Origin: Phytohabitans houttuyneae
GTDB lineage: Bacteria > Actinomycetota > Actinomycetes > Mycobacteriales > Micromonosporaceae
Assembly: GCF_011764425.1 (NCBI RefSeq)
Contig: NZ_BLPF01000002.1
Location: 124,001-188,000 of the forward strand
Direction of reading: 5' to 3'
Length of the DNA: 64,000 bases
The number at the start of each line of letters is the position of its first letter. Position 1 is the stretch's first letter. The translations under genes were made by a program, and so were the position numbers. Positions 6,328 through 33,096 of the stretch are shown piece after piece. The notes beneath the pieces are model-generated. The model was not told the DNA's origin. It saw only the letters and a program-made list of their open reading frames with translations, and made no database searches.

Positions 6328-6376
6328 CGAACCCGCGGGCCGGGCACCGGCGCGACGCCGCACAACGATGCCGCGG

Positions 6377-7845: not shown

Positions 7846-7868
7846 CGGAAGAGGAATCGAGGCATGGG

Positions 7869-8366: not shown

Positions 8367-8393
8367 GGGTACCCAAACGCCGGCTCTACGAAG

Positions 8394-17872: not shown

Positions 17873-20686
17873 TCAGTCAAGGTTGAGCCGCCACGCGGAC
17901 AGGCCGTGGGTGGCCGCGTACAGGATCCGCTTGCCGGGCAGGATGGTGAGACCGGCGACCTCGACGTTGGGCATGCCGGGCGCCGCTCGGGTCCACGTGC
18001 TCGTGCCGGCCGCGTTGCGCAGCACGCCGAAGTCGGTCGAGGCGTACAGGTCTCCGGTGACGTCGTCGCGTACCAGGTCGGTGACCGGGATGTCGCCGAA
18101 GTCGTACGACCGGTCGACCCAGGTGGCCGTGCCGGCGGCCGGGTCGAAGGTGACCTCGAAGACATGTCCCGGCGTCGTCGTGGTGTTGACGTTGTACCCG
18201 CTGTACGAGACCCAGGCGTGGTTGCCGTTCTTCGGGTCGACGTAGATGCTGCTGACGAACCGGCCGGGCGCCGGCGCGTCGTCGTCGACCCGGGTCCAGG
18301 TCACCGCCGAGGCCGGCTCGGCGTCCACGTTCGAGGTAACGAAGACGCGGCCGGTCGTGGTGGCGGCCCAGGCGCTGGACGTGTTGAGCGTCGTGCGCTC
18401 GATCGCCGCGACCGCGCCGCCGGCCCGGTCACCCCAGAACGGGTCCACCAGCCGGTTGGGTCCCAGCTCCACCCAGTCACCACACGTCTCGTCGAACGTG
18501 CCGGTCCAGGTGTTGCAGATCCGGTTGGCCTCGGCCAGGGTGCGGTCGCCCAGCCCGAAGGTCTTGGTGCGGTACGCCGTACGGCCGGTGCCGGCGAACA
18601 TCGTGCCGCTCACCTTCGGGTCGCTGATCACCGGGGAGTAGAACTGCGAGCCCGCCTGGTTGGCGAGCGGGTCCGCCGTGTAGATCCAGTCGGCGGTGGC
18701 GCCGTTGTTGAAGTTGACCTCCGGCGTCGTGTCGTTGTACGTGTGGAACCGGAAGTTCTTCACCTTGACGTCGAAGCCCGACTGCCCACCGTCACCGATG
18801 ATGGTGTTCAGCCACAGCCGGCGGTTGCCGTAGTTTTCCCAGGTGCCGTTGTCTTGAGTGCCGCCCTGCAGCAGCTCGGGGTCGTGCGGGCTCACCGACA
18901 GGCTCATAAATTGCAATGTGGACAGTCCGGCGTTGATCCCGTCCAGCTTGGACGGTATCCGGGACAGCATCTGCCGGCACCGCACCAGCTGCGGCGCGGT
19001 CAGCTCGCGATCCGGGTCGTCGCACCAGGCGGACCGGTCGACGAACGTGCCGCTGGAGCGCATCACGCCGCCGTCGTTGGCCTCGAAGAACAGGAACGGG
19101 TTGCGCGGATGCGTGACGATGTCGTGCTGGTCCGGGTGCAGCCCGTTCGGATGGAGCTCGTCGGTGCCGTCGAAGGTCATGTCGGTGCCGGTCAGGCCCG
19201 CGTCGGTGGACAGCACCACGGCCCGCTTGTTGGCGATCGTCTCGCCGTACGCGTACGACCCGCCCGCGTACACGATGTCGGGATGCCCGTCCGGCGTGTG
19301 GACGAACACGTCGTACCAGCACTGACCGCCGCACAGGTTGTACCAGGCGTAGCCCGGGTCGGCCACGTTGGCGCTGGTCAGGTCGGTGAACACCGGCGTA
19401 CCCGCGGCGACGTCGTCGCTGCGCAGCAGCCGCGCGTACGGCGTGCCGGTGTTGCCCTCGTAGACGTACATGCGGGTCTTGCCGTCGCGCAGCCGGGTGA
19501 CGTCGAACGACGGGCGGGTCTGGATGATCGCCGGGTTGAGCGACTCCTTGATCTGCGTCCACGTCGCGCCGGCGTCCGAGGAGCGCCAGATGCCCCGCGC
19601 GTACGACGCGGCGTACACGATGTTGGAGTTGGCCGGGTCGAGCTCGACCTGGCGCACCCCGCGCGGGGAACAGATCGAGCCGTTGGCGAACTCGGTCGCG
19701 CTGCCGGTGCAGTCGGCGACGTTCACCGAGCCGTTGTGGATGAAGCTGAACGTGCGGCCGCCGTCGGTCGACTTGTACAGCCCCCACTTGGCCGCGCCCG
19801 GCGTGGGCCGGGTGACGCCGGTGCAGCAGACGCTGGACATGCCGGTCAGCGCGGTGGTCGTCGCGACGTACAGGGTGCGGGAGTCGCCCGGCTTGATGAC
19901 GATCTCACCGATGCCCTTGCCGCCCAGCTCCGCCTTGCCCAGCGGCCCGATCCAGGTGCGGCCGGCGTTTGTCGACTTGTACAGCCCGACGCCCGCACCG
20001 CAGCCGGAGCCGCAGATGTTGGCCTCGCCGGTGCCCAGCCAGACCGTGTTGCGGCTCGGGTCGTTCTTGTCGATCGTCACCGCGCCCGCGGTGTTGATGT
20101 CCAGCGGCCCGGCCAGGTACTTCCACTCCGGCTGCTTGCGCATGATGTCGTCGGTGCGCCAGACGCCACCCCCGGCCGGCGTGATGTACGCCCGGCAGAA
20201 GCCCGGCCAGCACCGGTCGCTCACCACGATCGAGGTGGTGCGCCCCCCAGCCACGTAGTCGTTGGGCACGTAGTTGAACGAGTTGCGCAGCGGGGTGTCC
20301 GGGTACAGGGCTTGGCTCGGCCCGACCGGCTGCCACGTGCCCTTCTTCGCCTTGCCGCGCGGGAAGCCGCGGCTCTGCGAGGTCGTAAATGCCCGCTTTG
20401 CCCCGTCGATCTCACTGACCGCGATCGCCGAGTCGGGGTAGGCCCGCTTGAGGTACTCAGCCGCGGCGGCCGAGCCAGGCCCTTCGAGCGCCATGCCGCT
20501 GTTGCCCGGCATGGCCTGGCGGCGCTTCTCCAGGTGCTTGGCGAGGGCGTCCGGCGCCTCCGCCTCGCCCACCACGGCGGCGGGCGCGGCCGGCGCGCCG
20601 GCGTAGTGAACAGCGACGAGACCGGCCGAAAGGGCCAGCACACTTACGGTGAGAGCTGCGAGAGACTGCCGACGTCTACGGGTCAT
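17873..20686 (-). CDS. Secreted sortilin/BNR-type beta-propeller protein
   Basis: 937 residues from ATG at 20686 with a signal peptide (about 1-32, ending near the AGAPAAPAA stretch). Many Asp-box-like repeats are visible, for example LYKSTNAGRTWIG, LYKSTDGGRTFSFIHNG and IWRSSDAGATWTQ, the S-x-D-x-G-x-T-W pattern of sialidase/sortilin propellers. Cysteine pairs (NICGSGCGAG, SSVCCTG) suggest disulfides outside the cell. No glycosidase catalytic set could be identified, so it may bind or cleave polysaccharide. Its place at the head of a sugar ABC operon suggests it feeds the transporter. Confidence 0.85.
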   Translation of the reverse strand: MTRRRRQSLAALTVSVLALSAGLVAVHYAGAPAAPAAVVGEAEAPDALAKHLEKRRQAMPGNSGMALEGPGSAAAAEYLKRAYPDSAIAVSEIDGAKRAFTTSQSRGFPRGKAKKGTWQPVGPSQALYPDTPLRNSFNYVPNDYVAGGRTTSIVVSDRCWPGFCRAYITPAGGGVWRTDDIMRKQPEWKYLAGPLDINTAGAVTIDKNDPSRNTVWLGTGEANICGSGCGAGVGLYKSTNAGRTWIGPLGKAELGGKGIGEIVIKPGDSRTLYVATTTALTGMSSVCCTGVTRPTPGAAKWGLYKSTDGGRTFSFIHNGSVNVADCTGSATEFANGSICSPRGVRQVELDPANSNIVYAASYARGIWRSSDAGATWTQIKESLNPAIIQTRPSFDVTRLRDGKTRMYVYEGNTGTPYARLLRSDDVAAGTPVFTDLTSANVADPGYAWYNLCGGQCWYDVFVHTPDGHPDIVYAGGSYAYGETIANKRAVVLSTDAGLTGTDMTFDGTDELHPNGLHPDQHDIVTHPRNPFLFFEANDGGVMRSSGTFVDRSAWCDDPDRELTAPQLVRCRQMLSRIPSKLDGINAGLSTLQFMSLSVSPHDPELLQGGTQDNGTWENYGNRRLWLNTIIGDGGQSGFDVKVKNFRFHTYNDTTPEVNFNNGATADWIYTADPLANQAGSQFYSPVISDPKVSGTMFAGTGRTAYRTKTFGLGDRTLAEANRICNTWTGTFDETCGDWVELGPNRLVDPFWGDRAGGAVAAIERTTLNTSSAWAATTTGRVFVTSNVDAEPASAVTWTRVDDDAPAPGRFVSSIYVDPKNGNHAWVSYSGYNVNTTTTPGHVFEVTFDPAAGTATWVDRSYDFGDIPVTDLVRDDVTGDLYASTDFGVLRNAAGTSTWTRAAPGMPNVEVAGLTILPGKRILYAATHGLSAWRLNLD

Positions 20687-20811
20687 CAGGGATCCCCTCC
20701 GCTACCGCTCGCAGCGAGCAGCAGAGATCGTCAGCCGTCGCTGGCATAGCTACCAGCAATGTCCCAGAGCCAGACCCGGGCATCAAGACCACCCGGTATA
20801 ACAATCGAGTC

Positions 20812-21220
20812 CTACCAATGACGTGTGCACCCCGCCAGCGGGTCCGTCAGCCCCGAGAGCGCCAGCACCTCCTCGACCCGGGTCCGCGGCAGCCGCGAGC
20901 CCGGCCAGGATCCGCTCATCCGGGCCGAGCGGCCCGGATGAGCGCCACACGAGTCGATCACCACGCCGGCGGTGCGCGCCTCGGGCGGGCGTTCCCGCAG
21001 TGGCGTGCCGCCGAGCAGCACACGGCCCGACGTCGGGCGCACCAGGCCCGGCCAGCATCGTGGTCTTACCGGCGCCGTTGGGCCCCAGGAACCCGGTGAC
21101 GACGCCAGGCAGGATGTCGAAGGAGACGTCGTCAACCGCGGTCAGCCGGCCGTATCGCTTGGTGAGCCGCTTCGCTGTGAGCACCGCGGAAGGCCCGGGT
21201 GGATGAAGTGGTTTCGCCAT
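20812..21220 (-). pseudogene. Degenerate ABC-2-type transporter ATPase fragment
   Basis: From ATG at 21220 the minus strand reads LTAKRLTKRYGRLTAVDDVS and a perfect Walker A (FLGPNGAGKTTML). Then the frame breaks: GLVRPTSGRVLLGGTPLRER and VVIDSCGAHPGRSAR are in another frame, DERILAGLAAAA returns to the first, and PRTRVEEVLALSGLTDPLAG is again in the second. One break is explained by an extra G in the GGG just after the Walker A region. The signature, Walker B and C-terminus are absent (about 135 of the usual 300 residues) and no permease gene follows. Several breaks plus truncation mean a true pseudogene. Confidence 0.78.
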
Positions 21221-21453
21221 GTCCGCAACGGTCCCGCTCGCGGGGGTCTCGGTCGTCCCCCCGCAGACCACACCTCATCTCCCACCCAGGTCGGAGAACC
21301 AACGATCCGCGAGATGCTCGCGCGCAGACGTTTTCCGAGGAATCGCTGCCTTTTGAGGGAGGGTTCCGATACGTGAACGTGAGAATTCGGCGGGGGACTG
21401 GTATAGGCGGTTGGTGAAGCTGTCCTGAAGCCCGGGTTCGGGATGCTAGGGGC

Positions 21454-21971
21454 GTGACGAGCAACGACGGCCTGTCTGGTCTTCGGCGGCGACGCGGGCT
21501 GCTGGACGCGATCGCGGAGATCTCGGAGCATCCGGTGACGCTCGCAGCGGGCGATCTCCAGGCCGAGTCCGCCAATACGCACTGGCTGGCGGCCAGCGCC
21601 GCAGAGCGGGCCGCCCTGTCGGTGGACGAGGTGGTGGCAGCGCTGCGGCGAGCCGCTCAGGCACTTCGCGAGCGGGTAGACGGGCCCGCCGTCCTCTATG
21701 TGTGGCACGACCGGCAGGCCGCCCAACTCCGCTGCTCGATCACCTCTCGACCGCCGGATGACCTCCCGTTCGGCAGCGACTACCGCAGGATCGACGACCT
21801 CGCGACGATCGTCAGCGCATTCCTCGACGCGGACCCGGCCCCAACGGTGCCGTGGGAGCTCGAACTCACGGTGGAAGCCCCCAAACCGAGGCAGACTCCC
21901 CGCTTCTGGTGTGGATCTTCCCGCTGTCCCTTGCGCATACTGGTGACGCAGAATCCCCTGCTCCGGAGTGA
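21454..21971 (+). CDS. Hypothetical protein with a probable 3' frameshift
   Basis: GTG 21454 opens a frame starting MTSNDGLSGLRRRRGLLDAI, mostly helical with an Asp/Arg-rich middle (YVWHDRQAAQLRCSITSRPP, PFGSDYRRIDDLATIVSAFL). After VPWELELTVEAP the literal frame becomes unlike a natural protein. Adding one C in the run at 21878-21882 leads instead to SPLLVWIFPLSLAHTGDAES and a stop at 21971, giving about 172 residues. I favour the corrected reading. No family recognised. The literal frame runs on to 22104. Confidence 0.5.
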
Positions 21972-22217
21972 TTCTTGGCTGGCGGAGGATAGAAATCGCG
22001 GACCTCGGCGCGATTGTCCACGCCTTCGACGGCATGCCGCCGGCCTCCACTACAACGCGGGCGGCGGCCACGACGGGCAACCTCATCACCCTTGGCACCG
22101 TTGAGCCCGGCGTGGACCACCTCGACCGTCTCAGCCGGGCCCCGTCGCCGTCATGGTGGAGGCGCCGTCTCACGTCCGGTGAGACACCGCTACACCGAGC
22201 CGAAAGGAACGCCTCCC

Positions 22218-23239
22218 ATGCGAGGAGCCATGTTGTACGCCCCGGCGACGTGCGCGTCGAGGAGCGTGAGGATCCCCGGATCGTCGAGCCGACCGATGCG
22301 GTCATCCGGCTGTCCGCCGCCTGCGTCTGCGGCTCAGATCTGTGGCCGTACCGCGGCATCGCGCAGGTCGACGGGCCGGCGCCGATGGGCCACGAGTACG
22401 TCGGCATCGTCGAGGAGGTCGGCGGCGACGTGCGTACCGTGCGGCCCGGGCAGTTCGTGGTCGGCTCGTTCTTCGCCTCCGACAACACCTGCGAGAACTG
22501 CCGCGCCGGCTACCAGAGCTCGTGCGTCCACCGGGTCGGGATCGGCGGGCTCGGCGCCCAGGCGCAGTACCTGCGGGTCCCCCTCGCCGACGGCACCCTC
22601 GTCGCCACGCCGGAGCCGCCGCCGGACGACCTGGTGCCGGGCCTGCTGGCCGCCTCCGACGTGCTGGGCACCGGCTGGTTCGCCGCCGTGGCCGCCGAGG
22701 TCGGCCCGGGCAGGACCGTCGCCGTCGTCGGTGACGGCGCGGTCGGCCTCCTCGGTGTCCTCGCCGCCAAGCACCTCGGCGCCGAGCGGATCATCGCCAT
22801 GAGCCGGCACGCCGACCGGCAGAAACTCGCCCTCGGCTACGGCGCGACCGACATCGTCACCGAGCGCGGCGACGACGGCGTCGGCCGGATCAAGGACCTC
22901 ACCGGCGGGCTCGGTGCCCACTGCGTCATCGAGGCCGTCGGCACCCAGGAGTCGATGATGCAGGCCATCCACTCGACCCGCCCCGGCGGACACGTCGGCT
23001 ACGTCGGCGTCGCCCACGACGTCGCCCTGCCCGGCCTGGAGCTGTTCTACTCCCACGTCCACCTGCACGGCGGCCCCGCCCCGGTGCGCCGCTTCCTGCC
23101 CGAGCTGATCGACCTCATCGTCGAGCGGCGGATCGACCCCGGCAAGGTGTTCGACCTGACCTTGCCGCTCGAACAGGCCGCCGAAGGGTACAAGGCCATG
23201 GACGAACGCCGCGCGATCAAGGTGCTGTTGCAGCCGTGA
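22218..23239 (+). CDS. Zinc-dependent alcohol dehydrogenase family protein (MDR), one-base frameshift near the start
   Basis: ATG 22218 (AAAGGA upstream) encodes MRGAMLYAP, the usual opening of these enzymes. The rest, from GDVRVEEREDP to the stop, lies in the next frame. One G appears to be missing after the C run at 22240-22243. The corrected protein is about 340 residues. Features: catalytic zinc region AACVCGSDLWPYRG and GHEYVGIVEEVG, structural zinc-type cysteines NTCENCRAGYQSSCVHR, and the NAD(P) loop VVGDGAVGLLGVLAA. It oxidises or reduces an alcohol/aldehyde with NAD(P). The next gene is a broken cupin, a common partner of such dehydrogenases. Confidence 0.85.
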
Positions 23240-23250
23240 AGGAGCAGAGC

Positions 23251-23537
23251 ATGATCACTCGAAGTGGATCACAGCCGGCCAGCCAGGGCCCCGCGGAGTC
23301 CTTCACCGGCGAGGTACGGATCCAGCCGCTGTTCGGTGCCGAGGACAGCGCGCCGTACACGGGCCGGTCGAGGAGTTCCGCGCCGGCGACGTGGTGTGGT
23401 GCCCACCGGGTGTCAAGCACTGGCACGGCGCCGGCCCCGACGGCCCTATGACGCACCTCGCGCTCACAAACGTCCGCGACGGGCAGGTCGTCGAATGGCT
23501 CGAGCACGTCACCGACGAGGAGTACGACGCGCTCTGA
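23251..23537 (+). pseudogene. Cupin-domain protein with the core deleted
   Basis: ATG 23251 follows AAGGAG and encodes MITRSGSQPASQGPAESF, then GEVRIQPLFGAEDSAPYTG, the standard start of cupin/carboxymuconolactone-type proteins. Directly after this, in a different frame, comes VEEFRAGDVVWCPPGVKHWH and THLALTNVRDGQVVEWLEHV, the second half of the same family. The intervening ~35 residues with the first metal-binding motif are missing and the junction (about 23362) is out of frame. The first half therefore ends at a stop at 23449-23451. The product cannot bind metal normally; a pseudogene by internal deletion. Confidence 0.8.
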
Positions 23538-23566
23538 GCCCGTGGCGCGGCGGCGAGCCGACACCG

Positions 23567-23692
23567 TCAGGCGAAGTCGGCGGCCGTCATGCCGGCCGGA
23601 TGGCCGGCCGGCCATTGCACGAGCTCGATCCTGTGGCCGTCGGGATCGGTCAGCCACGACGACACCTGCCGCACGCCGCGGACCTGTGACAT
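23567..23692 (-). pseudogene. C-terminal fragment of a VOC/glyoxalase gene
   Basis: Only about 41 codons remain on the minus strand. They read VRQVSSWLTDPDGHRIELVQ and then WPAGHPAGMTAADFA before TGA. The D-P-D-G-H-R-I-E-L pattern is the conserved last strand of VOC proteins, with its metal-binding Glu. An ATG at 23692 opens the frame but nothing of the first three beta-alpha modules is present upstream. A remnant; it neighbours the gutted cupin, so the region seems to have suffered several deletions. Confidence 0.65.
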
Positions 23693-23799
23693 TCGATCCT
23701 GGCTGAAAGACCTGGCGTGCCCTCCTCGGCGACCCGATCCTGGACCAAACCCCTCAGGCGCCTGGGGTGACGTTCACCCACGTGAAGCGAAGGGGATCG

Positions 23800-24024
23800 A
23801 TGTCAACGGCACTGTCACAGATTGGCGACCGGCTGCTCAGCCGGCTGCTGCCCAAGCAACAGGCCGGGGCGTGCGACTACTGCCAAGGGCCCTGTGCCAG
23901 CAAGTACGTGGTCGTCTGCTCGGGCGGCAGGCTGGAGTTGCTCTACTGCCACCACCGGTACTCGTGTCAATGCGGCTGCGTTCCCTACTCCTGCACCTAC
24001 CAAGGTGATCTCGGAGCTTGCTGA
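23800..24024 (+). CDS. Ten-cysteine small peptide, candidate exported disulfide-rich product
   Basis: 74 residues from ATG 23800 with AGGGG seven bases upstream. Residues 1-24 (MSTALSQIGDRLLSRLLPKQ, then QAGA) form a basic amphipathic helix without a hydrophobic Sec core, like a leader peptide. Residues 25-74 contain ten cysteines (25, 28, 32, 40, 50, 56, 58, 60, 65, 74) and six tyrosines but no tryptophan. The density fits five disulfides. The AGA just before Cys25 is a possible signal peptidase site. The next four genes encode MauE-like, thioredoxin-like, ABC exporter and S26 peptidase proteins, so I infer this peptide is their substrate. It could be a toxin, structural peptide or redox carrier; no family was recognised. 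Confidence 0.75.
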   Translation: MSTALSQIGDRLLSRLLPKQQAGACDYCQGPCASKYVVVCSGGRLELLYCHHRYSCQCGCVPYSCTYQGDLGAC

Positions 24025-24079
24025 TTCCACAATGGTCGGCCGGCGCCCGCGGTGCCGGCCGGCCGCTCGGGAGGCCCAC

Positions 24080-24613
24080 GTGACGTATCTCCAGCTGGCG
24101 AGCCGAGGCGTGCTCGGCTTCGTCATGGCGCTCGCGGTCGTCGGCAAGCTGAGCGGGCGGCGCCCGTGGCGGGACTTCCAGGCTTCGCTGGGCGGCTTCG
24201 GGTGGATGCCGCGCCCCTGGTGGCCGGCCGTCGCCGCGCTTGTCGTTCTGGCCGAGGCCACCGTGGTGGGGCTTGTCCTGCACCCCGCGACGGCCACCGC
24301 CGGCCTGCTGTTCGGCGGCCTGCTGGTGCTGGCGGTGTCGGTGGCCGTGCTTGGCGCGCGCCGCGCGGGCCGCGAGGTTCGCTGTCACTGCTTCGGCGGC
24401 GATGCCGGCCCGATCGGCAAGGCCCACCTGGCCCGCAACGTGGTGCTGCTGCTCGTGTGCGGCACCGGAGCCGCGTCGTCGGCCGTGACGACCGCGACGC
24501 CCGGCCCGGCGACCGGCGGGCTCCTGCTCGGCCTCGCCGGTGTGGCCGCCGTCGCGCTTTCGTACCCGGCGGAGCTGTCGTTCGTCATCGCGCCGCCGGC
24601 AAGACGTTCCTGA
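24080..24613 (+). CDS. MauE/DoxX-like integral membrane protein
   Basis: 177 residues from GTG 24080, with GGGAGG just upstream. Four hydrophobic segments (about 8-24, 50-68, 74-92, 140-165) and the motif EVRCHCFGGDAGPIGKAHLARN, which contains the C-x-C-F-G signature of MauE-type proteins (Cys102 and Cys104). In methylamine utilisation, MauE and MauD are needed for making or stabilising the disulfide-rich small subunit of methylamine dehydrogenase. Here no dehydrogenase gene is near. Its probable job is to pass oxidising or reducing equivalents across the membrane for the ten-cysteine peptide. Confidence 0.85.
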   Translation: MTYLQLASRGVLGFVMALAVVGKLSGRRPWRDFQASLGGFGWMPRPWWPAVAALVVLAEATVVGLVLHPATATAGLLFGGLLVLAVSVAVLGARRAGREVRCHCFGGDAGPIGKAHLARNVVLLLVCGTGAASSAVTTATPGPATGGLLLGLAGVAAVALSYPAELSFVIAPPARRS

Positions 24614-24632
24614 CACGAAGGACGGGATTGCT

Positions 24633-25178
24633 ATGACCTGGTTGGTTCTCGCCGGACTGCTGACGGTGCTCATCCTGACCCTGTTGAACCTCAGCCTGAC
24701 CGCCGCGTTGATCCGGTACGTGCGCGAGCGCGACGCGGCCGACACGCACCACCGCCCGCCCGCCTTCGCGACCGGCCAGCGGGTCGGCTCGTTCCAGGCG
24801 TGGACCGTGGCCGGTGACGCGGTGTCCGAACAGGACCTGGACGGCGGGGACAGCCTGGTGGCGTTCGTCTCGGCGGGCTGCCCACCGTGCCAGGACGTGC
24901 TCGCGCAGCTCGAGACCGGCGTGCCGCTGCCGGAGCGCCGGCTGTTCGTGTTCGTCTTCGGTGACGACGCCGACGCTGCCTCGGTGGCCGCGCGGCTGCC
25001 TCGGGCGGTCGTGGCCCGCACCGAGGTCGCGGGGCAGGTCGGCGACGCGTTCGGCGGCGTCGAGGGATACCCGCGGCTGATGCTGGTCTCCGACGCGGTT
25101 GTCACGGCGGTCGGGCTGACGCTGGAGCAGGTGGTGCAGGCCGCCGCGCTCCCGGTCCCCACCGGGAGCCATGCGTGA
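24633..25178 (+). CDS. Membrane-anchored thioredoxin-like protein (MauD/TlpA-like)
   Basis: 181 residues from ATG 24633. An N-terminal transmembrane helix (WLVLAGLLTVLILTLLNLSL) precedes a thioredoxin fold outside the membrane. The active site is SAGCPPCQDVLAQLE with Cys83 and Cys86, followed by the cis-Pro region VEGYPRLMLVSD. The CPPC active site is common in MauD/TlpA relatives. It lies 19 bases after the MauE-like gene and its stop overlaps the ABC transporter GTG, so these genes are co-translated. It likely forms or shuffles disulfides in the peptide. Reductase activity is the alternative. Confidence 0.87.
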   Translation: MTWLVLAGLLTVLILTLLNLSLTAALIRYVRERDAADTHHRPPAFATGQRVGSFQAWTVAGDAVSEQDLDGGDSLVAFVSAGCPPCQDVLAQLETGVPLPERRLFVFVFGDDADAASVAARLPRAVVARTEVAGQVGDAFGGVEGYPRLMLVSDAVVTAVGLTLEQVVQAAALPVPTGSHA

Positions 25179-27081
25179 CCATCCTCTACACCCAGCCGGC
25201 CGAGGATCCGTCGGTGATGCCGCTGCGCCAGCGGTGGCAGGCCGCGATGCTGGCCCTCTCCCTCGGGCTGCGGGCCGCGCCGGGTGGGTACGCCACCATG
25301 GCGGCGCTTGCCGTGCTGTCCGGGGAGCCGCCCCGCTCGGGGCGTGGCTGATGAAGCTGCTCATCGACCGCCTCGTCGCCGGCCCCCAGGGCGCCGCGCC
25401 GATCCTGCTGCTGGCGCTGGGCGCCGCCCTCGCCGGTGGCGCCGCGGTGGTGATCGGCGAACTGTCCATGTACGTCGGCGCCCGGGTCCAGCGCGCGGTC
25501 ACGCTGCACGTGCAGTCGGGGCTGAGCCGGCGGGTGAACCGGCTTGTCGGCCTGCGCCACTTCGAGGATCCGTCCTATCAGGACCGGATGCGCCTGGCCG
25601 CACAGGCGGCCGACACCACGCCGAACGAGACGGCGATGTTCGCCCTGGAAGGGCTGCGGCAGGGCATAGCGGTCACCGGCTTCGTGGGCACGCTGATCGC
25701 GATCTGGCCACCCATCGGCCTGCTTCTGCTCGCCGCCGCCGTCCCGGCCTACCTCGGGCAGCGGGCCACCGCCCACCGCCACGCCGCGGCCGCCCAGGCC
25801 ATGTCGCCGGTCCAGCGCCGGCAGTACTACTACCGCTCGCTGATGACCGAGCGCCGCGCCGCCAAGGAGGTGCGCCTGTTCGGACTCGGTGACTTCTTCC
25901 ACGGGCGGATGATGGCCACGCTCACCCGCGGCACCAATGTGGAACTCGCCGTGCAGCGCCGGGCGGCGCTGATCCAGAGTGGAATCGCGGTGTTGAACGC
26001 CGTCGTGGGCGGCATCGGCGTCGGCGTGGTCGCGTGGCGGGCGGCGCGCGGCTCGGCGACCGTCGGCGACGTGACCCTGTTCGTGGCCGCCGTCGCGGCA
26101 CTGCAGGGCGCGCTCGGCGGGCTGCTGTCCAGCCTTGGCCGGGTGCAGGCCGGCGTGCTCCTGATGCGCCACTACACCGCGGTCATGGACGGGACGGACG
26201 ACCTGGTGGACGGCACCAACCCCGTGCCGCCGCTGCGCCACTGCGTCGAGCTGCGGGACGTCTGGTTCCGCTACTCGCCGGCGGGGCCGTGGGTGCTGCG
26301 GGGCGTCAACCTGACCATCCCGGTAGGACAGTCGGTGGGGCTGGTCGGCCTCAACGGTGCCGGCAAGACCACCCTGGTCAAGATCCTGTGCCGGCTGTAC
26401 GCGCCGGAGCGCGGCGTCATCCTGTGGGACGGTGTGGACATCGCGACGTTCGAGGCGGCCCAGCTGCGACGGCGGATCTCGGCGACCTTCCAGGATTTCG
26501 TCACGTACGACATGACGGTGCGGGAGAACATCGGCATCGGCGATCTGTCCAAGATGGACGACGCGGACCGGGTCCGCCGCGCCGCCACCGCCTGCGGCCT
26601 GTCCGGGGCCGTCGACGAGCTGCCGGAGGGGTACGAGACGATGGTGAGCCTCAGCTTCTTCGGCGCCAGCGAAAACCGCGGTGTGATGCTGTCCGGCGGG
26701 CAGCTGCAGCGGCTCGCGATCGCCCGGTCGGTACTGCGCGACGGTGCCGACCTGCTGATCCTCGACGAGCCCAGCTCGGGCCTGGACGCGATGGCCGAGC
26801 ACCACCTGCACGCCACGCTCAGCGCCCGCCGGGCGGGCGGCACGAGCCTGCTCGTCTCGCACCGGCTGGGGGCGCTGCGCGACGCCGACCTCCTCGTGGT
26901 GCTGAGCGAGGGCGAGGTCGCGGAACGCGGCACGCACGACGAGCTGATGGCGGCGGAGGGCGTGTACGCGACCCTGTTCAGCCTGCAGGCCACGTCCTAT
27001 CAGGACGATCGCGTCACCCAGCGGGTGGATGACGTGGTGGGCCTGGCGCACGCCGGCGGGATCATCCGGCTGGACTCGTGA
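25175..27081 (+). CDS. ABC transporter, fused permease and ATPase (exporter type), one-base frameshift near the start
   Basis: GTG 25175 overlaps the upstream stop and encodes VTILYTQPAEDPSVMPLRQR, TMAALAVLSG. The remainder, from AAPLGAWLMKLLIDRLVAG, is one frame over. One extra G in the run at 25322-25325 repairs it, giving about 635 residues. The transmembrane domain holds five to six helices. The nucleotide domain shows Walker A LVGLNGAGKTTL, signature MLSGGQLQRLAIARS, Walker B DLLILDEPSSGLDA and H-loop LVSHRLGAL. There is no C39 peptidase domain, so leader removal must come from elsewhere, probably the S26 peptidase next door. It probably exports the cysteine-rich peptide. Confidence 0.88.
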
Positions 27082-27091
27082 GGAGAGCGCC

Positions 27092-27544
27092 GTGGCCGGT
27101 CTTGTGACGCTCCTGATCATCGGCTGCGCGGTGGCGTTGGCGGCCGGGTACGCGCGGACGAAGCTGATCCTGGTCGTGGTCGACGGGGACAGCATGCGGC
27201 CGCTGATCGCCGCGGGTACCCGCGTGCTGGTCCGCCGCACCCGACGGTGCCGCGGGGGCGACATCGTGCTGCTGCGCCCGTGGCGCTTCGGCCCGCCGAT
27301 GGTGAAGCAGGTCGTGGCGGTCGCGGGTGACCCGGTGCCGGCCGAGTTCCGGCCGGTGACGGCGGCCGCCACCGTGCCGGACGGGATGCTGCTGATCCGC
27401 GGGACGGCCCCGGACAGCATGGACTCCCGGCAGCTCGGGCCGCTGGCCACCGGCGATGTCGTCGGGGTCGTCCTCGGTCGGCGGCCGCCCATCCCGGCCC
27501 CGGCCGCGCCCGGCGGAGCGCCACGATTGACCGGCGGGGTTTGA
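27092..27544 (+). CDS. S26 family signal peptidase
   Basis: 150 residues from GTG 27092, AGGAGAG nine bases upstream. One N-terminal membrane anchor (LVTLLIIGCAVALAAGYA) is followed by catalytic Ser34 in VVDGDSMRPLI, the general base Lys72 in PPMVKQVVAVAGDPV, and the conserved block GTAPDSMDSRQLGPL. The protein is shorter than housekeeping LepB enzymes, as in dedicated peptidases. It begins ten bases after the exporter gene. I infer that it removes the leader of the ten-cysteine peptide, perhaps at the AGA before Cys25. Confidence 0.9.
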   Translation: MAGLVTLLIIGCAVALAAGYARTKLILVVVDGDSMRPLIAAGTRVLVRRTRRCRGGDIVLLRPWRFGPPMVKQVVAVAGDPVPAEFRPVTAAATVPDGMLLIRGTAPDSMDSRQLGPLATGDVVGVVLGRRPPIPAPAAPGGAPRLTGGV

Positions 27545-27631
27545 ACTTGTCGCGCGGAGGTGGCAGCGGGGGTCGGGGTTTCGGCGAGCGCCCCAGCGCG
27601 AGCCGCCGACCGCCGCGGTCTCCGGCGGGAG

Positions 27632-27647
27632 CAGCGGTCCGCCGCTG
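27632..27647. terminator. Hairpin between convergent genes, possible terminator
   Basis: CAGCGG and CCGCTG are six-base arms around a TCCG loop, lying between the stop of the signal peptidase gene and that of the GntR gene, which converge here. There is no U-rich tract, so a terminator role is only suggested by its place. Confidence 0.28.
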
Positions 27648-27672
27648 ACGCGGACCCGGGAACTCCGCTTGG

Positions 27673-28371
27673 CTAACGGGAGCGGCGGCGGGGCTTGCTG
27701 TTGGGCGGGCCGTCTTCGGAGAGGGCGGCGACCGAGTCGAGGTGGGCCTCCATGGCGGCCGCCGCCGCCGGGCCGTCGCCGGCCTCAATCGCGTCGAGGA
27801 TGGCCTGGTGCTCGATGTCGGCGCGGTGGGCGCGTCCCTCGATCTTCGTGAGGGTGAGCGCCTGGTCCTGCAGCACCTGCCGCAGGTCGCCGACCAGCAG
27901 CTCGAAGAGCGGGTTGCGCGTGGCGGCCGCGATGCCGATATGAATGTCGGCGTCGATCTCGATCCGCTTGCTCGCCTCGGGCGTGGCGCCGAACCGCTGC
28001 ACCAGCTGGCGAAGCTTCTTCAGGTCGGCCGCGGTGCGCCGCTCGGCCGCCAGCCGGGCCGACGGGACCTCGAGCGCGCGCCGGATCTCGCCGAGCTGCG
28101 CCGGCAGGTAGCGACCCATCAGCAGCTGTGAGCTGAGGTGGGTGGAGGCGACGAACGTGCCCTTGCCCGCGTGCGAGCGGGTCAGGCCGAGCGCGTTGAG
28201 GCTGTAGAGCGCCTCGCGGATGACCGATCGGCTCACCGAGAACGACTGAGCGAGCTCGGCCTCCGAAGGCAGGCGGTCGTTGACCGCGTAGTGGCCATTT
28301 TCGATCAGCTCGATGAGCTGCGCCCGGACGACCTCCGATGCGCGCCGCTGCTGTACTGGCCTGATGGTCAC
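27673..28371 (-). CDS. GntR family (FadR/FCD subfamily) transcriptional regulator
   Basis: 232 residues from GTG at 28371; a longer frame from 28419 has no support. The N-terminal winged helix reads RLPSEAELAQSFSVSRSVIR and LGLTRSHAGKGTFV, typical of GntR. The helical FCD ligand domain follows, with DADIHIGIAAATRNPL (the D-x-x-x-H metal/ligand motif) and a second His in HRADIEHQAILDAIEAGD. The gene ends in an Arg/Lys tail. A site TTGTCTGACAG lies 22 bases upstream, and four related sites precede the divergent and downstream catabolic genes. It is probably the local repressor, responding to a carboxylate or sugar acid. Confidence 0.92.
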   Translation of the reverse strand: MTIRPVQQRRASEVVRAQLIELIENGHYAVNDRLPSEAELAQSFSVSRSVIREALYSLNALGLTRSHAGKGTFVASTHLSSQLLMGRYLPAQLGEIRRALEVPSARLAAERRTAADLKKLRQLVQRFGATPEASKRIEIDADIHIGIAAATRNPLFELLVGDLRQVLQDQALTLTKIEGRAHRADIEHQAILDAIEAGDGPAAAAAMEAHLDSVAALSEDGPPNSKPRRRSR

Positions 28372-28392
28372 GCCAGAACCGTACCGGTCTGG

Positions 28393-28403
28393 TTGTCTGA
28401 CAG
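28393..28403. promoter_or_regulatory. Candidate FadR-type operator 1 (autoregulatory)
   Basis: TTGTCTGACAG, close to the TTGTCnGACAA consensus of FCD-type GntR regulators, directly before the GTG of the regulator gene. Occupation would repress its own transcription. Recognised by comparing five similar sites in this island. Confidence 0.6.
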
Positions 28404-28437
28404 CAATATCCCGCTCCACTCAGCGCACCCCAAATGG

Positions 28438-29532
28438 TTACATTCCAATATGGTAATTCGACCACGGCGTCGTGCACGGATTGCCCGGTGCCACGTGCAG
28501 GGCCGCCTCTTCGACATCGATTATGATGCCCGCGACTGTACAGGTCCGCTCGGCCTCCGGCATGTTCGCGTTGGGGTGCTGGCATACGCTATTCGGCTCG
28601 TATGTGTGGTCCGCGAGTGCGGCTTTGAGCGTTTCGATCGTGTGTTCGCGCCGGCCGCGCAGTTGGCCGTCGATCGCCCGTAGGCGGTCGACGGTGTGCT
28701 TCTTGCGCGCGAGGTAGACGTCCCGCTCGGTGAGCTCGGCGGTCAGGAAGTGGTTGGCGTGTGTCAGCACACCGCCGGTCGGTGACAGTCGCCGATACCC
28801 GCCGGCCACCGGTGTGGTCTCGATGTCGGTGCAGAAGCCGCTGCGGTCGAAGACCAGGTAGTTGGCGGAGATGGCCCGGTCCGTCTCGGCGATCCGGTCG
28901 GCCGCGTGCTTGCCGGAGTCGCTGTCCAGCACCGACCGCAGCAGTACGTGGTAGGGCACCGCCGTCTTGCCCTCGGAGTGGCTGCTGATCAACGTGTTGG
29001 TGCACAGCCCGACGCCGGCCGAGTTGAAGCCCACCTTGGCCAGCAGGCCGGCCTCCACGACGGTCACGAAGTCCGGGCCGTCGTCTCGCCGCACCTCCAG
29101 CACCACCGAAGTCTGCCGGGCGTGTGAGATCCAGTCCCAGTTCTGCCCCGCGATGTACGTGCGGGTGCGTGTCGCCTCCGGCGTGAGGCAGAAGGCGGTG
29201 CACTCCAACGGCTCGATCGCGCTGCCGCTGCCGAACATCAGCTCGCTGCGGGTGTTGAGTGCGAGGACGTCCTCGATCTGGAGGTTGGCGCCCTCGGCGA
29301 TGCCGGCCAGCTCGTCGGCGATCGCGGGGGAGAAGTCGGCGATCACCGGCAGGAAGCCGCGCGCCCGGCGCTGCACCTCGGGCCAGGACCAGCCCTGGTA
29401 GTGGTCGAAGACCCGCGCGTAGCCGACCATCGAGCTCTCGATCTCGCGTCGCGCCACGGCTCCGTAGGCCCGGCCCCGCTCGCGTGGCGGCCCGCTGACG
29501 CGGTAGTGCGGGAACGAGTGCGATGAGGTCAC
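28438..29532 (-). CDS. C45 family Ntn acyltransferase/amidase (isopenicillin N acyltransferase-like)
   Basis: 364 residues from GTG at 29532, with GAGAGGA upstream; a longer frame lacks a start signal. The family nucleophile is Cys111 in IEPLECTAFCLTPEA, which becomes the new N-terminus after self-cleavage. Other marks are NWDW (IAGQNWDWISHARQ), GFNSAGVGLCTNTL and the later GGVLTHANHFL. Members cleave or make amide bonds between acyl groups and amines. In this sugar-catabolic island it may remove an N-acyl group from the substrate. Transcribed alone, divergently from the SDR operon; two operator-like sites lie in between. Confidence 0.87.
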   Translation of the reverse strand: MTSSHSFPHYRVSGPPRERGRAYGAVARREIESSMVGYARVFDHYQGWSWPEVQRRARGFLPVIADFSPAIADELAGIAEGANLQIEDVLALNTRSELMFGSGSAIEPLECTAFCLTPEATRTRTYIAGQNWDWISHARQTSVVLEVRRDDGPDFVTVVEAGLLAKVGFNSAGVGLCTNTLISSHSEGKTAVPYHVLLRSVLDSDSGKHAADRIAETDRAISANYLVFDRSGFCTDIETTPVAGGYRRLSPTGGVLTHANHFLTAELTERDVYLARKKHTVDRLRAIDGQLRGRREHTIETLKAALADHTYEPNSVCQHPNANMPEAERTCTVAGIIIDVEEAALHVAPGNPCTTPWSNYHIGM

Positions 29533-29566
29533 GGAGGTCCTCTCTGCAGAATGCCAGGCCGTCAGG

Positions 29567-29577
29567 TTGTCAGACAG
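29567..29577. promoter_or_regulatory. Candidate FadR-type operator 2
   Basis: TTGTCAGACAG, almost the same as operator 1, lies 35 bases before the C45 gene start in the divergent intergenic region. It would control the leftward transcript. Confidence 0.6.
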
Positions 29578-29622
29578 GTACACGGCCGGATACGTTGCGA
29601 GTTCCGGGCAATCTAAGCACGA

Positions 29623-29639
29623 TGTCTGGCAGCCAGACA
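29623..29639. promoter_or_regulatory. Candidate FadR-type operator 3 (perfect inverted repeat)
   Basis: TGTCTGG-CAG-CCAGACA, a perfect 7-base inverted repeat, lies 37 bases before the ATG of the rightward SDR gene. Its half-site TGTCTG/CAGACA is shared with operators 1 and 2, so the same regulator is likely. Confidence 0.6.
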
Positions 29640-29675
29640 ACCGGTCAAGTGCTGATACGGAAACGGAGACGACGC

Positions 29676-30422
29676 ATGCCGACAGCCCTGGTGGCGGGCG
29701 GAGCAACGGGCATCGGTCGCGCGGTCGCGCGCCGGCTGCTGGGCGCCGGGTGGCACGTCCACGTCAGCGACATCGCCGACGGCACGGCGCGGGAAGCGCT
29801 GGGCGACCAGCCCGCCGAGCGGTACTCGGTCTCGCGCGTCGACCTCTCCGCCGCGGCCGGCGCCGCCGACGCGGTGTCCGCCGCGCTGGAGCTGACCGGT
29901 GAGCTGACCGCCGTCGTGGTCTGCGTGGGCCTGCTGGTCGAGCGCGAGCTCGCCGACTTCACGGTCGAGGAGTGGGACCGCACCATGGCGCTCAACCTGC
30001 GCGCGCCCTTCCTGATCACTCAGTCAGCCGCCCCGCACCTGATCGCGTCGGGTGCCGGGCGAGTGGTGCTGACCGGTTCCACGGCGGCGTTCCGCGGCGG
30101 GGGCGGGTCGTTCGCCTACGCGGCGTCGAAGGGCGGGCTCGTCGCGCTGGTGCGCTCGCTCGCGGTGGCGCTCGGTCCGTCCGGCGTATCGGTCAACTGC
30201 GTGTGCCCCGGCTGGATCGACACGCCGTTCAACGACCCGTACTGGGAGCGGGTCGGCATCGAGCGCGCACAGGCCGAGCGAGACCTCGTCGCACGGATCC
30301 CGCGCGGCGCGCTCGGGCAGCCGGACGACGTCGCCGGCCTGATGGCGTTTCTCGCGTCGCGGGACGCGGGCTACATCACCGGGCAGTCCTTCGTCGTCGA
30401 CGGCGGGCTGCTGGCCTCGTGA
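29676..30422 (+). CDS. Short-chain dehydrogenase/reductase (SDR)
   Basis: 248 residues from ATG 29676 (CGGAGA upstream). Classical SDR marks: nucleotide loop GGATGIG near residue 8, the VVVCVG strand, catalytic Ser in LTGSTAAF and Tyr148/Lys152 in FAYAASKGG, and the C-terminal GYITGQSFVVDGG. It oxidises or reduces a secondary alcohol with NAD(P). It is the first gene of the rightward catabolic operon, preceded by an inverted-repeat operator. Confidence 0.93.
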   Translation: MPTALVAGGATGIGRAVARRLLGAGWHVHVSDIADGTAREALGDQPAERYSVSRVDLSAAAGAADAVSAALELTGELTAVVVCVGLLVERELADFTVEEWDRTMALNLRAPFLITQSAAPHLIASGAGRVVLTGSTAAFRGGGGSFAYAASKGGLVALVRSLAVALGPSGVSVNCVCPGWIDTPFNDPYWERVGIERAQAERDLVARIPRGALGQPDDVAGLMAFLASRDAGYITGQSFVVDGGLLAS

Positions 30423-30439
30423 GCACGGGAGGTTTCCCC

Positions 30440-30862
30440 ATGACCAGACAGATCACGACAATCGACTGCCAGACCGCGCAGCGCGTTGCCGCGGCGGTCG
30501 TCGCGGAGGCCACCGGCCGCCGGGTCGCCGTGGCGGTCGTGGTGACCGATCCGGCCGGCGAGCCGATCGCGGTCGTACGGATGGACGGCGCCAACGCTGT
30601 CGCGCTGCGCCTCGCCACCGACAAGGCGTACACGGCGGTGGCCTTCGGCGCGCCCAGCCACCACTGGGCGGAGGCGACCGCACCCGGCGGGGTCGACTGG
30701 GGGATGGCCAACGCCGCCGGTGGCCGGATTCTCGTGCTTCCCGGCGGGCTGCCGATCCGGGCCGGCGGTCAGGTGGTCGGCGCGGTCGGCGTGAGCGGCG
30801 CGGCACCGCCCGTCGACCTCGCGTGTGCCGAAGCCGGCTGCGCCGCACTGGAGGCCGCATGA
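30440..30862 (+). CDS. GlcG/HbpS family protein
   Basis: 140 residues from ATG 30440, GGGAGG ahead of it. The family (Pfam GlcG/HbpS-like, former DUF336) is seen in VTDPAGEPIAVVRMDGA, ATDKAYTAVAFGAPSH and the C-terminal LPGGLPIRAGGQVVGAVGVS. Members bind small ligands, including heme or corrinoids, and often sit in sugar-acid or glycol operons without a known reaction. It follows the SDR gene by 17 bases. Exact role here unknown. Confidence 0.9.
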   Translation: MTRQITTIDCQTAQRVAAAVVAEATGRRVAVAVVVTDPAGEPIAVVRMDGANAVALRLATDKAYTAVAFGAPSHHWAEATAPGGVDWGMANAAGGRILVLPGGLPIRAGGQVVGAVGVSGAAPPVDLACAEAGCAALEAA

Positions 30863-30893
30863 TCCCTTGCGCCCCGGCGCGCCGGCTCGATAA

Positions 30894-30906
30894 CTTGTCA
30901 GGCAAG
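30894..30906. promoter_or_regulatory. Candidate FadR-type operator 4
   Basis: CTTGTCAGGCAAG, a 13-base imperfect palindrome, sits 37 bases before the next gene's ATG. It suggests a second controlled promoter inside the island, in front of the DJ-1-like gene. Confidence 0.55.
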
Positions 30907-30943
30907 TGGACAACCGGACTTCCAAGCCGCTGAGGAGTAGCGC

Positions 30944-31363
30944 ATGTCGCTGAGCGGAAGGACCATCGCCGTGCTGGCCGGTGAGGGATATCAGGAACTC
31001 GAGCTGTGGTACCCGGTGCTGCGGGCGCGCGAGGCGGGGGCCGACGTCGCGGTCGTGACGTCCGAGCCCGCGGGGGTCACCAGCCACCTCGGCTACCCGC
31101 TGATCCCGGTCGGCCAGGACACCGACCCGGACCGGTTCGACGCGGTCGTCGTCGCGGGCACGGTGACCGGCGTCCCGGCGCTGTCCGAGGCGCAGACGAA
31201 AGTATTGCGGGCGGCCGAGGCGGGGTCCAAACCCATCTACACCCTCGGCACCGCGGGCCAGGTGGAGGCGGCCGGCGCGCAGCGGTTTGCGTCCGCGGAC
31301 GCACTGCCTGAGCTGATGAGGGCCCTGGTTTCCGATCTGTCCCCGAGTGGGGTGAGCGCATGA
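30944..31363 (+). CDS. DJ-1/PfpI-like protein lacking the catalytic cysteine
   Basis: 139 residues from ATG 30944 (GAGGAG upstream). It shares TIAVLAGEGYQELELWYPVL and FDAVVVAGTVTGVP with the full DJ-1-like protein encoded two genes later. Where that partner has AAICHAG, this one has IYTLGTAGQ, so the nucleophile is missing, and it is about 80 residues shorter. It may be a non-catalytic partner, a binding protein, or a decaying duplicate. Its stop overlaps the start of the lactonase gene (ATGA). Confidence 0.8.
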   Translation: MSLSGRTIAVLAGEGYQELELWYPVLRAREAGADVAVVTSEPAGVTSHLGYPLIPVGQDTDPDRFDAVVVAGTVTGVPALSEAQTKVLRAAEAGSKPIYTLGTAGQVEAAGAQRFASADALPELMRALVSDLSPSGVSA

Positions 31364-32424
31364 AGGTGCTGCGCACAGTGCTCGGCGACGTCCCGGCCGA
31401 GTCGTCCGGGCTGATGCTGTCGCACGAGCACCTGCTCTACGGGTACCCGGGCGCCGAGCTCGACCCCCGCGCGGCCCTGGACTACGACGCGGCGGTGGAC
31501 TTCGTCGCCAAGCAGGTCCGCAAGGGTAAGCAGGACCACGGCTACGGCACGATCGTGGACATGACGCCGCCGGAGGTCGGGCGGTACCCGAAGTTCATGG
31601 CCGACGTCGCCGTGAAGACCGGCATGAACGTCATCGCCATCACCGGCTTCTTCCCTGAGCGGATGGGCATCCCGTACTACTGGCGGCGGCAGACGGTGGA
31701 GGAGCTGACCGAGTTCTTCGTCAGCGACCTCACCGAGGGCATGGTCTTCGCCTGGCACAAGACGCCGTACCGGGCCGGCGCGATCAAGATTGCCACGGGG
31801 CAGGAGAGCGTCACGCCGAAGCCGAGCCCGCTCGGCCCCAACGGCCGGCACATCCACGAGGTCGAAGACCGGGTGATCCGCGCGGCAGCCCACGCGGCGA
31901 AACAGGTCGGCTGTGCCATCAACACGCATATCGACCCAATGGACTTCGACGTGACAAACCCGCTGCGCGAGCAGCTGGAGATCCTCCTTGAGGAGGGGCT
32001 GGACCCGGGTAAGGTGATCTTGGGGCACGCGTTCGTCCCGCCGCAGCTCGGCGCGATGAAGGAAGTGCTCGACATGGGCGCCAACGTTCAGCTCGACCAC
32101 GTCGGCATCCCGTGGCGGATCAGCAGTGCGGAGGAGCTGGACGAGGCGATGGCCGTCGCGCTTGTCGAGCTGCTCGACGCCGGGTACGGCGACCGGATCA
32201 CCATGTCGTTCGACCGGTGGTTCATGAACCCCCGCGCGGGCGTCACCGAGCAGGATCCGCAGCTGCTCAACGAGAAGGTCGACCTGAGCTACATGTTCAC
32301 CAGCTGGGTGCCGCGGCTGAAGTCCAAGGGCGTCACGGACGAGCAGCTCCGGAAGATCATGGTCGACAACCCGCGCCGGATCTTCTCCATCGAGGTACCC
32401 GACCCCGCGCCCGCCGCCGCATAG
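31360..32424 (+). CDS. Phosphotriesterase-like lactonase/amidohydrolase family protein
   Basis: 354 residues. The two-metal site of the phosphotriesterase family is visible: His22 and His24 in MLSHEHLLYG, bridging Lys143 in AIKIATGQES, a His in CAINTHIDPMDF, a second His in VILGHAFVPP and the last Asp in TMSFDRWFMN. Such proteins hydrolyse lactones, carboxyl esters or, rarely, phosphotriesters; in catabolic operons sugar lactones are the usual substrate. The ATG overlaps the upstream stop, so translation is coupled. Confidence 0.9.
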   Translation: MKVLRTVLGDVPAESSGLMLSHEHLLYGYPGAELDPRAALDYDAAVDFVAKQVRKGKQDHGYGTIVDMTPPEVGRYPKFMADVAVKTGMNVIAITGFFPERMGIPYYWRRQTVEELTEFFVSDLTEGMVFAWHKTPYRAGAIKIATGQESVTPKPSPLGPNGRHIHEVEDRVIRAAAHAAKQVGCAINTHIDPMDFDVTNPLREQLEILLEEGLDPGKVILGHAFVPPQLGAMKEVLDMGANVQLDHVGIPWRISSAEELDEAMAVALVELLDAGYGDRITMSFDRWFMNPRAGVTEQDPQLLNEKVDLSYMFTSWVPRLKSKGVTDEQLRKIMVDNPRRIFSIEVPDPAPAAA

Positions 32425-32441
32425 CAGAGAGCAGGTTGACC

Positions 32442-33095
32442 GTGGACGTTTCGCAGGCCCGCGTGGCCGTCCTGTGTGAAAACCAGTACCAGGAGCTGGA
32501 GCTGTGGTATCCGGTGCTCCGGCTGCGTGAGGCCGGCGCGACCGTCGTGATCGTCGGGCCGGTGCGCGGCGAGGTGTACGCCAGCAAGCTCGGCTACCCC
32601 GCGGTCGCGGAGGTGGCGATCGACGAGGTCACGCCGGACCACTTCGACGCCGTCGTGGTGCCGGGCGGGTTCTCGCCGGAGTACCTGCGGCGCAACAAGG
32701 CGATGGTCGATTTCATCAAGGCGAGCGTGGCCGAGGACAAGCCGGTAGCGGCGATCTGCCACGCCGGCTGGCTACTCGCCACCGCCGACGTCGTCAAGGG
32801 TCGCCGGGCCACGTCGGTGGCGACAATCCGCGACGACGTACGGCACGCCGGCGCGATCTGGCTCGACGAGCCCGTCGTGCGCGACGGCAAGCTGCTCACC
32901 GCGCAGCTGCCCAACGACCTGCCCGCGTTTCTGGCCGGTGTGCTCGACTTCATCGACGAGGCCGAGCAGGTCGAGCGGCCGCCGCTGCCCGAACACGAGA
33001 CGAGCTCGGCGGTCTACGACCGCGTCGCCGTGCTGAAGAACCGCGCCGCCGGACCGGGCTCGGCCAACTACCGCGCATACGCCGAGCTCGCCTGA
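32442..33095 (+). CDS. DJ-1/PfpI family protein
   Basis: 217 residues from GTG 32442 (AGCAGG six bases upstream; TTG 32436 is an alternative). The nucleophile elbow is AAICHAGWLL with Cys106; the upstream acidic residue sits in CENQYQELELWYPVL. The C-terminus carries an extra ~40 residues (from about EHETSSAVYDRVAVL). Family members act as glyoxalase-like deglycases, amidases or proteases. It pairs with the shorter, cysteine-less paralogue on the other side of the lactonase gene. Confidence 0.9.
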   Translation: MDVSQARVAVLCENQYQELELWYPVLRLREAGATVVIVGPVRGEVYASKLGYPAVAEVAIDEVTPDHFDAVVVPGGFSPEYLRRNKAMVDFIKASVAEDKPVAAICHAGWLLATADVVKGRRATSVATIRDDVRHAGAIWLDEPVVRDGKLLTAQLPNDLPAFLAGVLDFIDEAEQVERPPLPEHETSSAVYDRVAVLKNRAAGPGSANYRAYAELA

Positions 33096-33096
33096 G

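Follow-up and report, generated by a model that had tools for sequence, protein, structure and literature searches.

The question that this locus raises is what a gene for a small, cysteine-rich peptide is doing directly ahead of genes for a MauE-like membrane protein, a thioredoxin-fold protein, an ATP-binding cassette (ABC) exporter and an S26 signal-peptidase-like protease. The locus lies in a stretch of 64,000 nucleotides from Phytohabitans houttuyneae (contig NZ_BLPF01000002.1, positions 124,001 to 188,000), here called the window. A sequence-only reading of the window had already picked out a 74-residue, ten-cysteine precursor followed by MauE-like, CPPC thioredoxin, ABC and S26 genes; the gaps it gave between the five genes (55, 19, -4 and 10 bases, in order) are exact and the operon is real, but the system is far larger than one operon, being a family of cassettes. 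We find that the five-gene set is a conserved cassette, whose precursor has its own predicted genes for modification, export and removal of the leader alongside. Judging from the sequences, we think it quite likely that it would act as a maturation line of its own for a peptide rich in disulfides, combining leader-directed ABC export, oxidation by the MauE/thioredoxin pair and cleavage by the S26 protease. The genes of the window locus are as follows:

23800-24024, + strand: precursor gene, 74 residues, with 10 Cys all within residues 25-74 and no Trp
23800..23871, + strand: precursor leader, 24 residues (MSTALSQIGDRLLSRLLPKQQAGA), charged, Cys-free, with A-G-A at its end
23872..24024 (stop codon included), + strand: precursor core, 50 residues, 10 Cys
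24080..24613, + strand: MauE-like membrane protein, matching PF07291, with a C-x-C-F motif (RCHCFG)
24633..25178, + strand: membrane-anchored thioredoxin-fold protein, MauD/TlpA/ResA-like by its predicted structure, with CPPC
25175..27081, + strand: ABC exporter, permease and ATPase fused, frameshifted once near 25,315-25,335 as assembled
27092..27544, + strand: S26 signal-peptidase-like protease, with a single N-terminal hydrophobic stretch and GDSM (Ser) and MVKQ (Lys) motifs

Recurrence of the five-gene cassette

When the peptide alone was searched against 61 genomes, matches were seen in 5, its own genome counted, and thioredoxin, ABC and S26 genes stood alongside at 2 of the 9 loci examined. 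An alignment of ten peptides found matches in 103 of 300 Micromonosporaceae genomes, and at class level peptide matches, some of them weak, were found in 26 of 394. Mapping of 48 loci, i.e. the window and 47 loci picked by peptide score, some of which were chosen after their near neighbours had been seen, gave an ABC gene together with a thioredoxin gene in 31, ABC and S26 genes only in 1, and none of the machinery in 16. The set can also be approached from the exporter, by scanning named genomes with an alignment of the ABC proteins (A4) and keeping the best 80 loci. These fall into two score groups, one of 59 loci at 606-842 bits and the other of 21 loci at 473 bits or below. Around the 59 upper-group exporters lie a MauD-like gene in 56 cases, the peptide in 54, S26 in 52 and MauE in 46, whereas the 21 lower-group exporters have no MauD-like, peptide or S26 gene nearby and MauE in a single case. 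The sequence-only reading had staked itself on a cysteine-rich frame being present at homologous loci, which these 54 cases bear out, and the co-occurrence that it proposed, of MauE-like, CPPC thioredoxin, ABC and S26 genes with such a frame, is complete at 43 of the 59. Since the same set recurs in dozens of genomes, its presence in the window goes beyond chance.

Among the best 80 ABC loci the cassette occurs in genera that include Streptomyces, Nonomuraea, Actinomadura, Amycolatopsis, Lentzea, Nocardiopsis, Microbispora and Micromonospora. All five genes are also present in the cyanobacterium Komarekiella atlantica (L164:4600-8700), at a G+C content that is cyanobacterial (0.39-0.45); when 5 candidates were scored in each of 243 Nostocales genomes, it alone had such an ABC protein at E <= 1e-150. 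At class level, where 4 candidates were scored in each genome, the ABC search matched 19 of 296 at E <= 1e-180. When considering plasmids, 29 of 72,556 records contain ABC matches at E <= 1e-90, and 26 of these 29 are from Streptomyces. For instance, the set on the Streptomyces clavuligerus megaplasmid (L265:3009-7234) begins with two small precursors in tandem (WP_003953191.1 and WP_009999284.1), which have 6 Cys each and are annotated as hypothetical proteins. These are followed in turn by MauE/DoxX, another hypothetical protein where the thioredoxin would be expected, ABC and S26. Genera are mixed in the ABC tree (57 label changes, compared to a minimum of 39 and a shuffled mean of 72.5), which is compatible with a degree of horizontal spread, although the count of changes is also inflated by paralogues and doubled labels.

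Leader, core and cysteines of the precursors

We gathered 187 distinct precursors, with start codons set by a scripted rule. The number of cysteines is even in 185 of them (range 4 to 12), and the two with an odd number (L162, L237) stand in tandem groups. The leader ends in A-x-A in 181 precursors, and in 180 of these the motif precedes the first Cys, which suggests that the S26 protease would cleave the peptide there, in keeping with what the sequence-only reading had proposed. The six that depart from the pattern are L140 and L106, which have V-S-A instead, the short-leader precursors L111, L113 and L115, and L225, where the scripted rule probably chose a start codon upstream of the true one. 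L111, L113 and L115 come from one genus (g106); their leader is shortened and lacks A-x-A, and two of the three genomes have a divergent ABC protein (656-660 bits).

Leaders resemble one another, and cores, Cys apart, hardly more than shuffled sequence would. Leader columns A22 and A24 do not vary across the 37 rows of alignment A3, and even with the A-x-A triplet taken out the leaders have an in-register identity of 0.235 compared to 0.094 when shuffled, while the cores, with Cys set aside, show 0.255 compared to 0.246, a contrast that is partly built in, as the model that collects precursors includes the leader. A constant leader ahead of a variable core is what one would expect of a leader-directed system resembling those of ribosomally synthesized and post-translationally modified peptides (RiPPs), and on these alignments the family would appear to be of that kind. 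The window leader has a top 10-residue mean hydropathy of 0.60, and over 113 leaders the maximum 10-residue mean has a median of 1.05 and a highest value of 2.38, a few leaders being fairly hydrophobic. By hydropathy, with no signal-peptide predictor run, a Sec core is absent from both the window leader and the median leader, as had been suggested for the window.

The composition of the cores bears on what the cysteines are for. At 17.1% Cys one might consider a metal-binding or redox buffer protein, whose cysteines would coordinate metal and be kept reduced or loaded by MauE and the thioredoxin, and the predicted structure of the latter resembles thioredoxin-fold proteins of the TlpA/ResA/CcmG kind, which are often reductants. 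However, the even Cys number in nearly all precursors, together with a Cys spacing that is highly variable, speaks more for disulfides than for a metal site of fixed form, His makes up just 1.7% of the cores, and no metal-uptake gene was recognised among recurring neighbours when one member per cluster was compared with Pfam. We thus regard a metal or redox function as unlikely, and disulfides as the better account of the cysteines.

The absence of tryptophan, which the sequence-only reading had made part of its case, is true of the window peptide but is not a trait of the family, as only 28 of 114 cores are Trp-free. Within 14 close pairs (at least 70% identical, of equal length, and with overlapping membership), the ratio of amino-acid to synonymous change (pN/pS) is 0.26 for the leader and 0.33 for the core. 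As synonymous changes exceed amino-acid changes in both parts, the precursor reading frames are real genes. The peptides match no known family in the collections compared: the window precursor matches no Pfam or NCBIfam model, 37 peptides compared with the same two collections gave no match beyond one in each at E about 0.04, which we take as chance, and searches of PADLOC and PDB sequences gave no match.

Machinery, proposed maturation and known relatives

The four machinery proteins can be identified with differing ease. The MauE-like protein scores 78.3 bits to PF07291 (curated cut-off 27; E 8.1e-22), and C.CF is kept in 73 of 76 stretches of its family. The thioredoxin-like protein has only weak scores in Pfam (best E 0.057), but its AlphaFold2 model, at a predicted local distance difference test (pLDDT) of 90, shows an N-terminal helix and a thioredoxin fold, with ResA (1su9) as the best Foldseek match (E 5.7e-9); the family profile likewise matches thioredoxin-family chains, ResA among the best, and both Cys of CxxC are invariant in 42 alignment rows. 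The S26 protease scores 48.2 bits to TIGR02227 (cut-off 47) and matches PF10502 at E 1.3e-14. In its family G.SM (the Ser motif) is found in 101 of 104 stretches. The pattern [VI]K[RQ] is kept in 96 of the same 104, and four of the stretches that depart from it read LKR. No C39 peptidase domain was found on the two exporters scanned, those of the window and of L059 (the latter without its N-terminus), for which Pfam gives ABC_tran and weak ATPase matches only. With leaders ending in A-x-A (181 of 187) and no C39 domain on these two exporters, the cassette does not look like a double-Gly/C39 bacteriocin system.

Drawing on the gene set, its conservation, the A-x-A motif, the Cys parity and the constant leader, the following route can be proposed, in which we infer the order of steps, the redox direction, that the ABC protein uses the leader, and what the product does. 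The precursor would be made with a conserved, charged leader, probably an amphipathic helix, that directs it to the ABC exporter of the cassette and not to Sec. Disulfides would be formed or reshuffled on the outer side of the membrane by the anchored CPPC protein, which would in turn be re-oxidised by the MauE-like membrane protein, much as in a DsbA/DsbB pair. The S26 protease would then cleave after A-x-A and release the core, with five disulfides in the case of the window peptide. With the leader constant and the core free to vary, a single machine could serve many cores. Our best guess at the product, at about even odds, is a secreted antagonistic peptide. At another locus of the same genome (L001:755-1965, G000:C4) a MauE gene (103.4 bits) overlaps a gene for a DsbA-like thioredoxin by 4 bases, which by analogy supports the proposed redox pairing and hints that MauE proteins might be wider redox partners of thioredoxin-fold oxidants.

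Several observations weigh against this proposal. MauE was not found near 13 of the 59 upper-group exporters, where another oxidant may serve. At two loci, L128 and L176, exporters of the same subfamily (787 and 761 bits; ABC at about 7000-8700) have no MauD, S26 or peptide found with them, and since they show no partner genes the subfamily is not exclusive to the cassette. In the pairs used for pN/pS the core bears no mark of positive selection such as an arms race might have left; AlphaFold2 gave no usable structure for the peptide (pLDDT 50); and no immunity gene was recognised among recurring neighbours. Lastly, the window copy itself may be dead, given the frameshift in its ABC gene as assembled. 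Looking further at the five exporter loci with no peptide (L128, L145, L154, L165 and L176), a looser filter on open reading frames gave no convincing precursor; L176 has a Cys-rich frame at 6128-6367 (-), with a leader of a different kind.

As MauE and MauD serve in methylamine dehydrogenase maturation, one may ask if that set has been reused here on a MauA-like subunit. The resemblance is that of a MauE family protein with a MauD-like, thioredoxin-fold partner acting for a disulfide-rich product. However, the cassette shows no dehydrogenase subunit, and the sequence-only reading was right that the pair accompanies a Cys-rich peptide and not dehydrogenase genes. What the cassette makes is a small peptide whose leader is short and not of the Sec type; in the window this peptide has no Trp, hence none of the tryptophans of the tryptophan tryptophylquinone (TTQ) cofactor, and at 74 residues it is shorter than PF02975, the MauA-type model (113 positions). 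A search with this model matched 0 of 35 genomes, 14 controls being equally silent, so that the zero does not count as absence. We regard a MauA-like substrate as hardly credible.

Two further kinds of system are similar in part. Sublancin/glycocin-type bacteriocins of Bacillus also have a leader, a dedicated ABC exporter and dedicated thiol-disulfide oxidoreductases beside the precursor; their double-Gly leader is cut by the C39 domain of the exporter and their core is glycosylated, whereas the cassette has a leader ending in A-x-A, an exporter on which C39 was not found and a separate S26 protease. Pairs of the DsbA/DsbB (VKOR) type likewise combine a thioredoxin-fold oxidant with a membrane re-oxidase, but the pair in the cassette is tied to one kind of substrate.

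The closest precedent is a prediction. Though the sequence-only reading knew of no described system with this set, that was too strong, as decRiPPter had already named three candidate RiPP families with mauE in Streptomyces, one of them with mauD too; each has a precursor containing 8 Cys or more and, by the account of the authors, no other mau genes (PMC7794033). In both cases mauE, once with mauD, stands beside a Cys-rich predicted precursor; the earlier families are a Streptomyces-based prediction, and the main text of that report names no signal peptidase (PMC7794033). The shared leader, A-x-A, Cys parity, orphan peptides and spread outside Streptomyces likewise go unnamed there, as far as the descriptions were compared (PMC7794033). 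The report names the strain S. viridosporus T7A (PMC7794033), and in our scan S. viridosporus NRRL 2414 has the cassette (L149). Its authors proposed, as a prediction, that MauE and MauD have a role in modifying the precursor (PMC7794033), which could also be taken to mean that the cassette makes a RiPP with thioether or other crosslinks, the redox pair merely protecting or reducing cysteines. The leader of the Cys-rich frame at L176, an ABC-only locus, is in our estimation lanthipeptide-like and would fit such a product. Among the neighbours common to at least 6 of 87 system loci, with one member per cluster checked, however, there is no known RiPP crosslinking enzyme, and we doubt that the modification is anything other than disulfide formation.

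Disulfide peptides that are directed by a leader and have oxidases of their own are known, and RiPP candidates with MauE had been flagged earlier, so that a cassette of this kind was already partly known. No other relevant report was found in the open-licence literature searched, outside which others may exist, and as far as these searches show the cassette is real, conserved and mostly undescribed. What is new is how large the system is, the route through A-x-A and S26, and the scattered arsenals described below. If the proposed line holds, it would be a further way in which bacteria export and fold ribosomal peptides, here ones that have two to six disulfides, and would give MauE and MauD a testable role beyond methylamine metabolism. 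A leader-addressed machine that tolerates unrelated cores would also be a tool and a source of new peptides, such folds being hard to make in bacteria. It would further bring many unannotated short genes of the Actinomycetota, including those of the well-studied Streptomyces clavuligerus, into one frame.

Possible peptide arsenals, the window copy and its neighbours

The number of peptides is often far from that of exporters. With 150 candidates scored per genome for the peptide, and ABC copies counted at 688 bits or more, genome G012 has at least 55 peptide matches and 1 cassette-type ABC, G031 has 32 and 2, G109 has 28 and 1, G009 has 18 and 1, G102 has 22 and 19, and the window genome has 1 of each. 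A further 20 selected stretches from G012 gave 27 precursors, of which 26 have an even number of Cys and all 27 have A-x-A. In G109, G009 and G093 the genes for S26, MauD and MauE adjoin the lone ABC, and in G012 S26 alone was found near it. Some Micromonosporaceae thus show 18-55 scattered peptide genes per one or two exporters, in contrast to G102 (14.1 Mb, contamination estimate 10; loci L215-L229), which multiplies the exporter, often with an adjoining peptide: 14 of 15 regions have a peptide near the ABC, some without MauD or S26 in reach. Scattered peptides would either be served by one machine, or some of them would be idle or served otherwise. It is a balanced possibility that these are arsenals in the manner of venoms, in which a constant leader sends hypervariable, disulfide-rich mini-proteins to one machine for export, oxidation and S26 cleavage.

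In the window itself the exporter gene is broken. The frame that begins at 25175 ends in a stop at 25351, and the remaining protein, from about AAPLGAWLMKLL, is read in another frame (open reading frame 25171-27081). In the closest relative, L059, whose ABC protein is 77% identical, the gene is one uninterrupted frame, and thus the window gene has one frameshift near 25,315-25,335; the sequence-only reading had put the ABC gene in the right place but missed this break. From the assembled sequence the frameshift could be either real or an assembly error. If real, it would abolish export and leave the peptide unmade, making the window copy a decayed remnant, which concerns this copy only and is compatible with the maturation line proposed for the family. 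Apart from the break itself, decay is suggested by the region directly upstream of the peptide gene (23236-23537), which we take to be a broken remnant of a cupin-like gene split over two frames, and by the flanks, where six open reading frames scanned belong to metabolic or regulatory families (alcohol dehydrogenase, GntR regulator, acyltransferase-type, short-chain dehydrogenase and phosphotriesterase) or, in one case, match nothing. The remaining four genes, however, are intact with their motifs kept, and the break falls in a stretch rich in G/C, of a type in which assemblies often go wrong. We consider a decayed copy possible, though somewhat less likely than not.

A BTAD/SARP-type regulator, its domains checked in one case, lies within 3.5 kb at 43 of 87 system loci, compared to 4 of 16 peptide loci without machinery and 0 of 21 lower-scoring ABC loci, the last being a weak control with only 11 of 21 from Actinomycetota. 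Such regulators are common in secondary-metabolite clusters of actinobacteria. With the same model none was found in the 16 kb of the window from 18001 to 34000. There are 14 neighbour clusters common to at least 6 of the 87 loci, and 11 of these overlie, at most of their loci, a reading frame of the BTAD regulator. The other three, with one member of each checked, are a protein kinase (7 loci), a short-chain dehydrogenase (6 loci) and a stand-alone ABC ATPase (10 loci). The last is seen at L076:5033-5878 (-) and nine other system loci, and could be a self-protection transporter.

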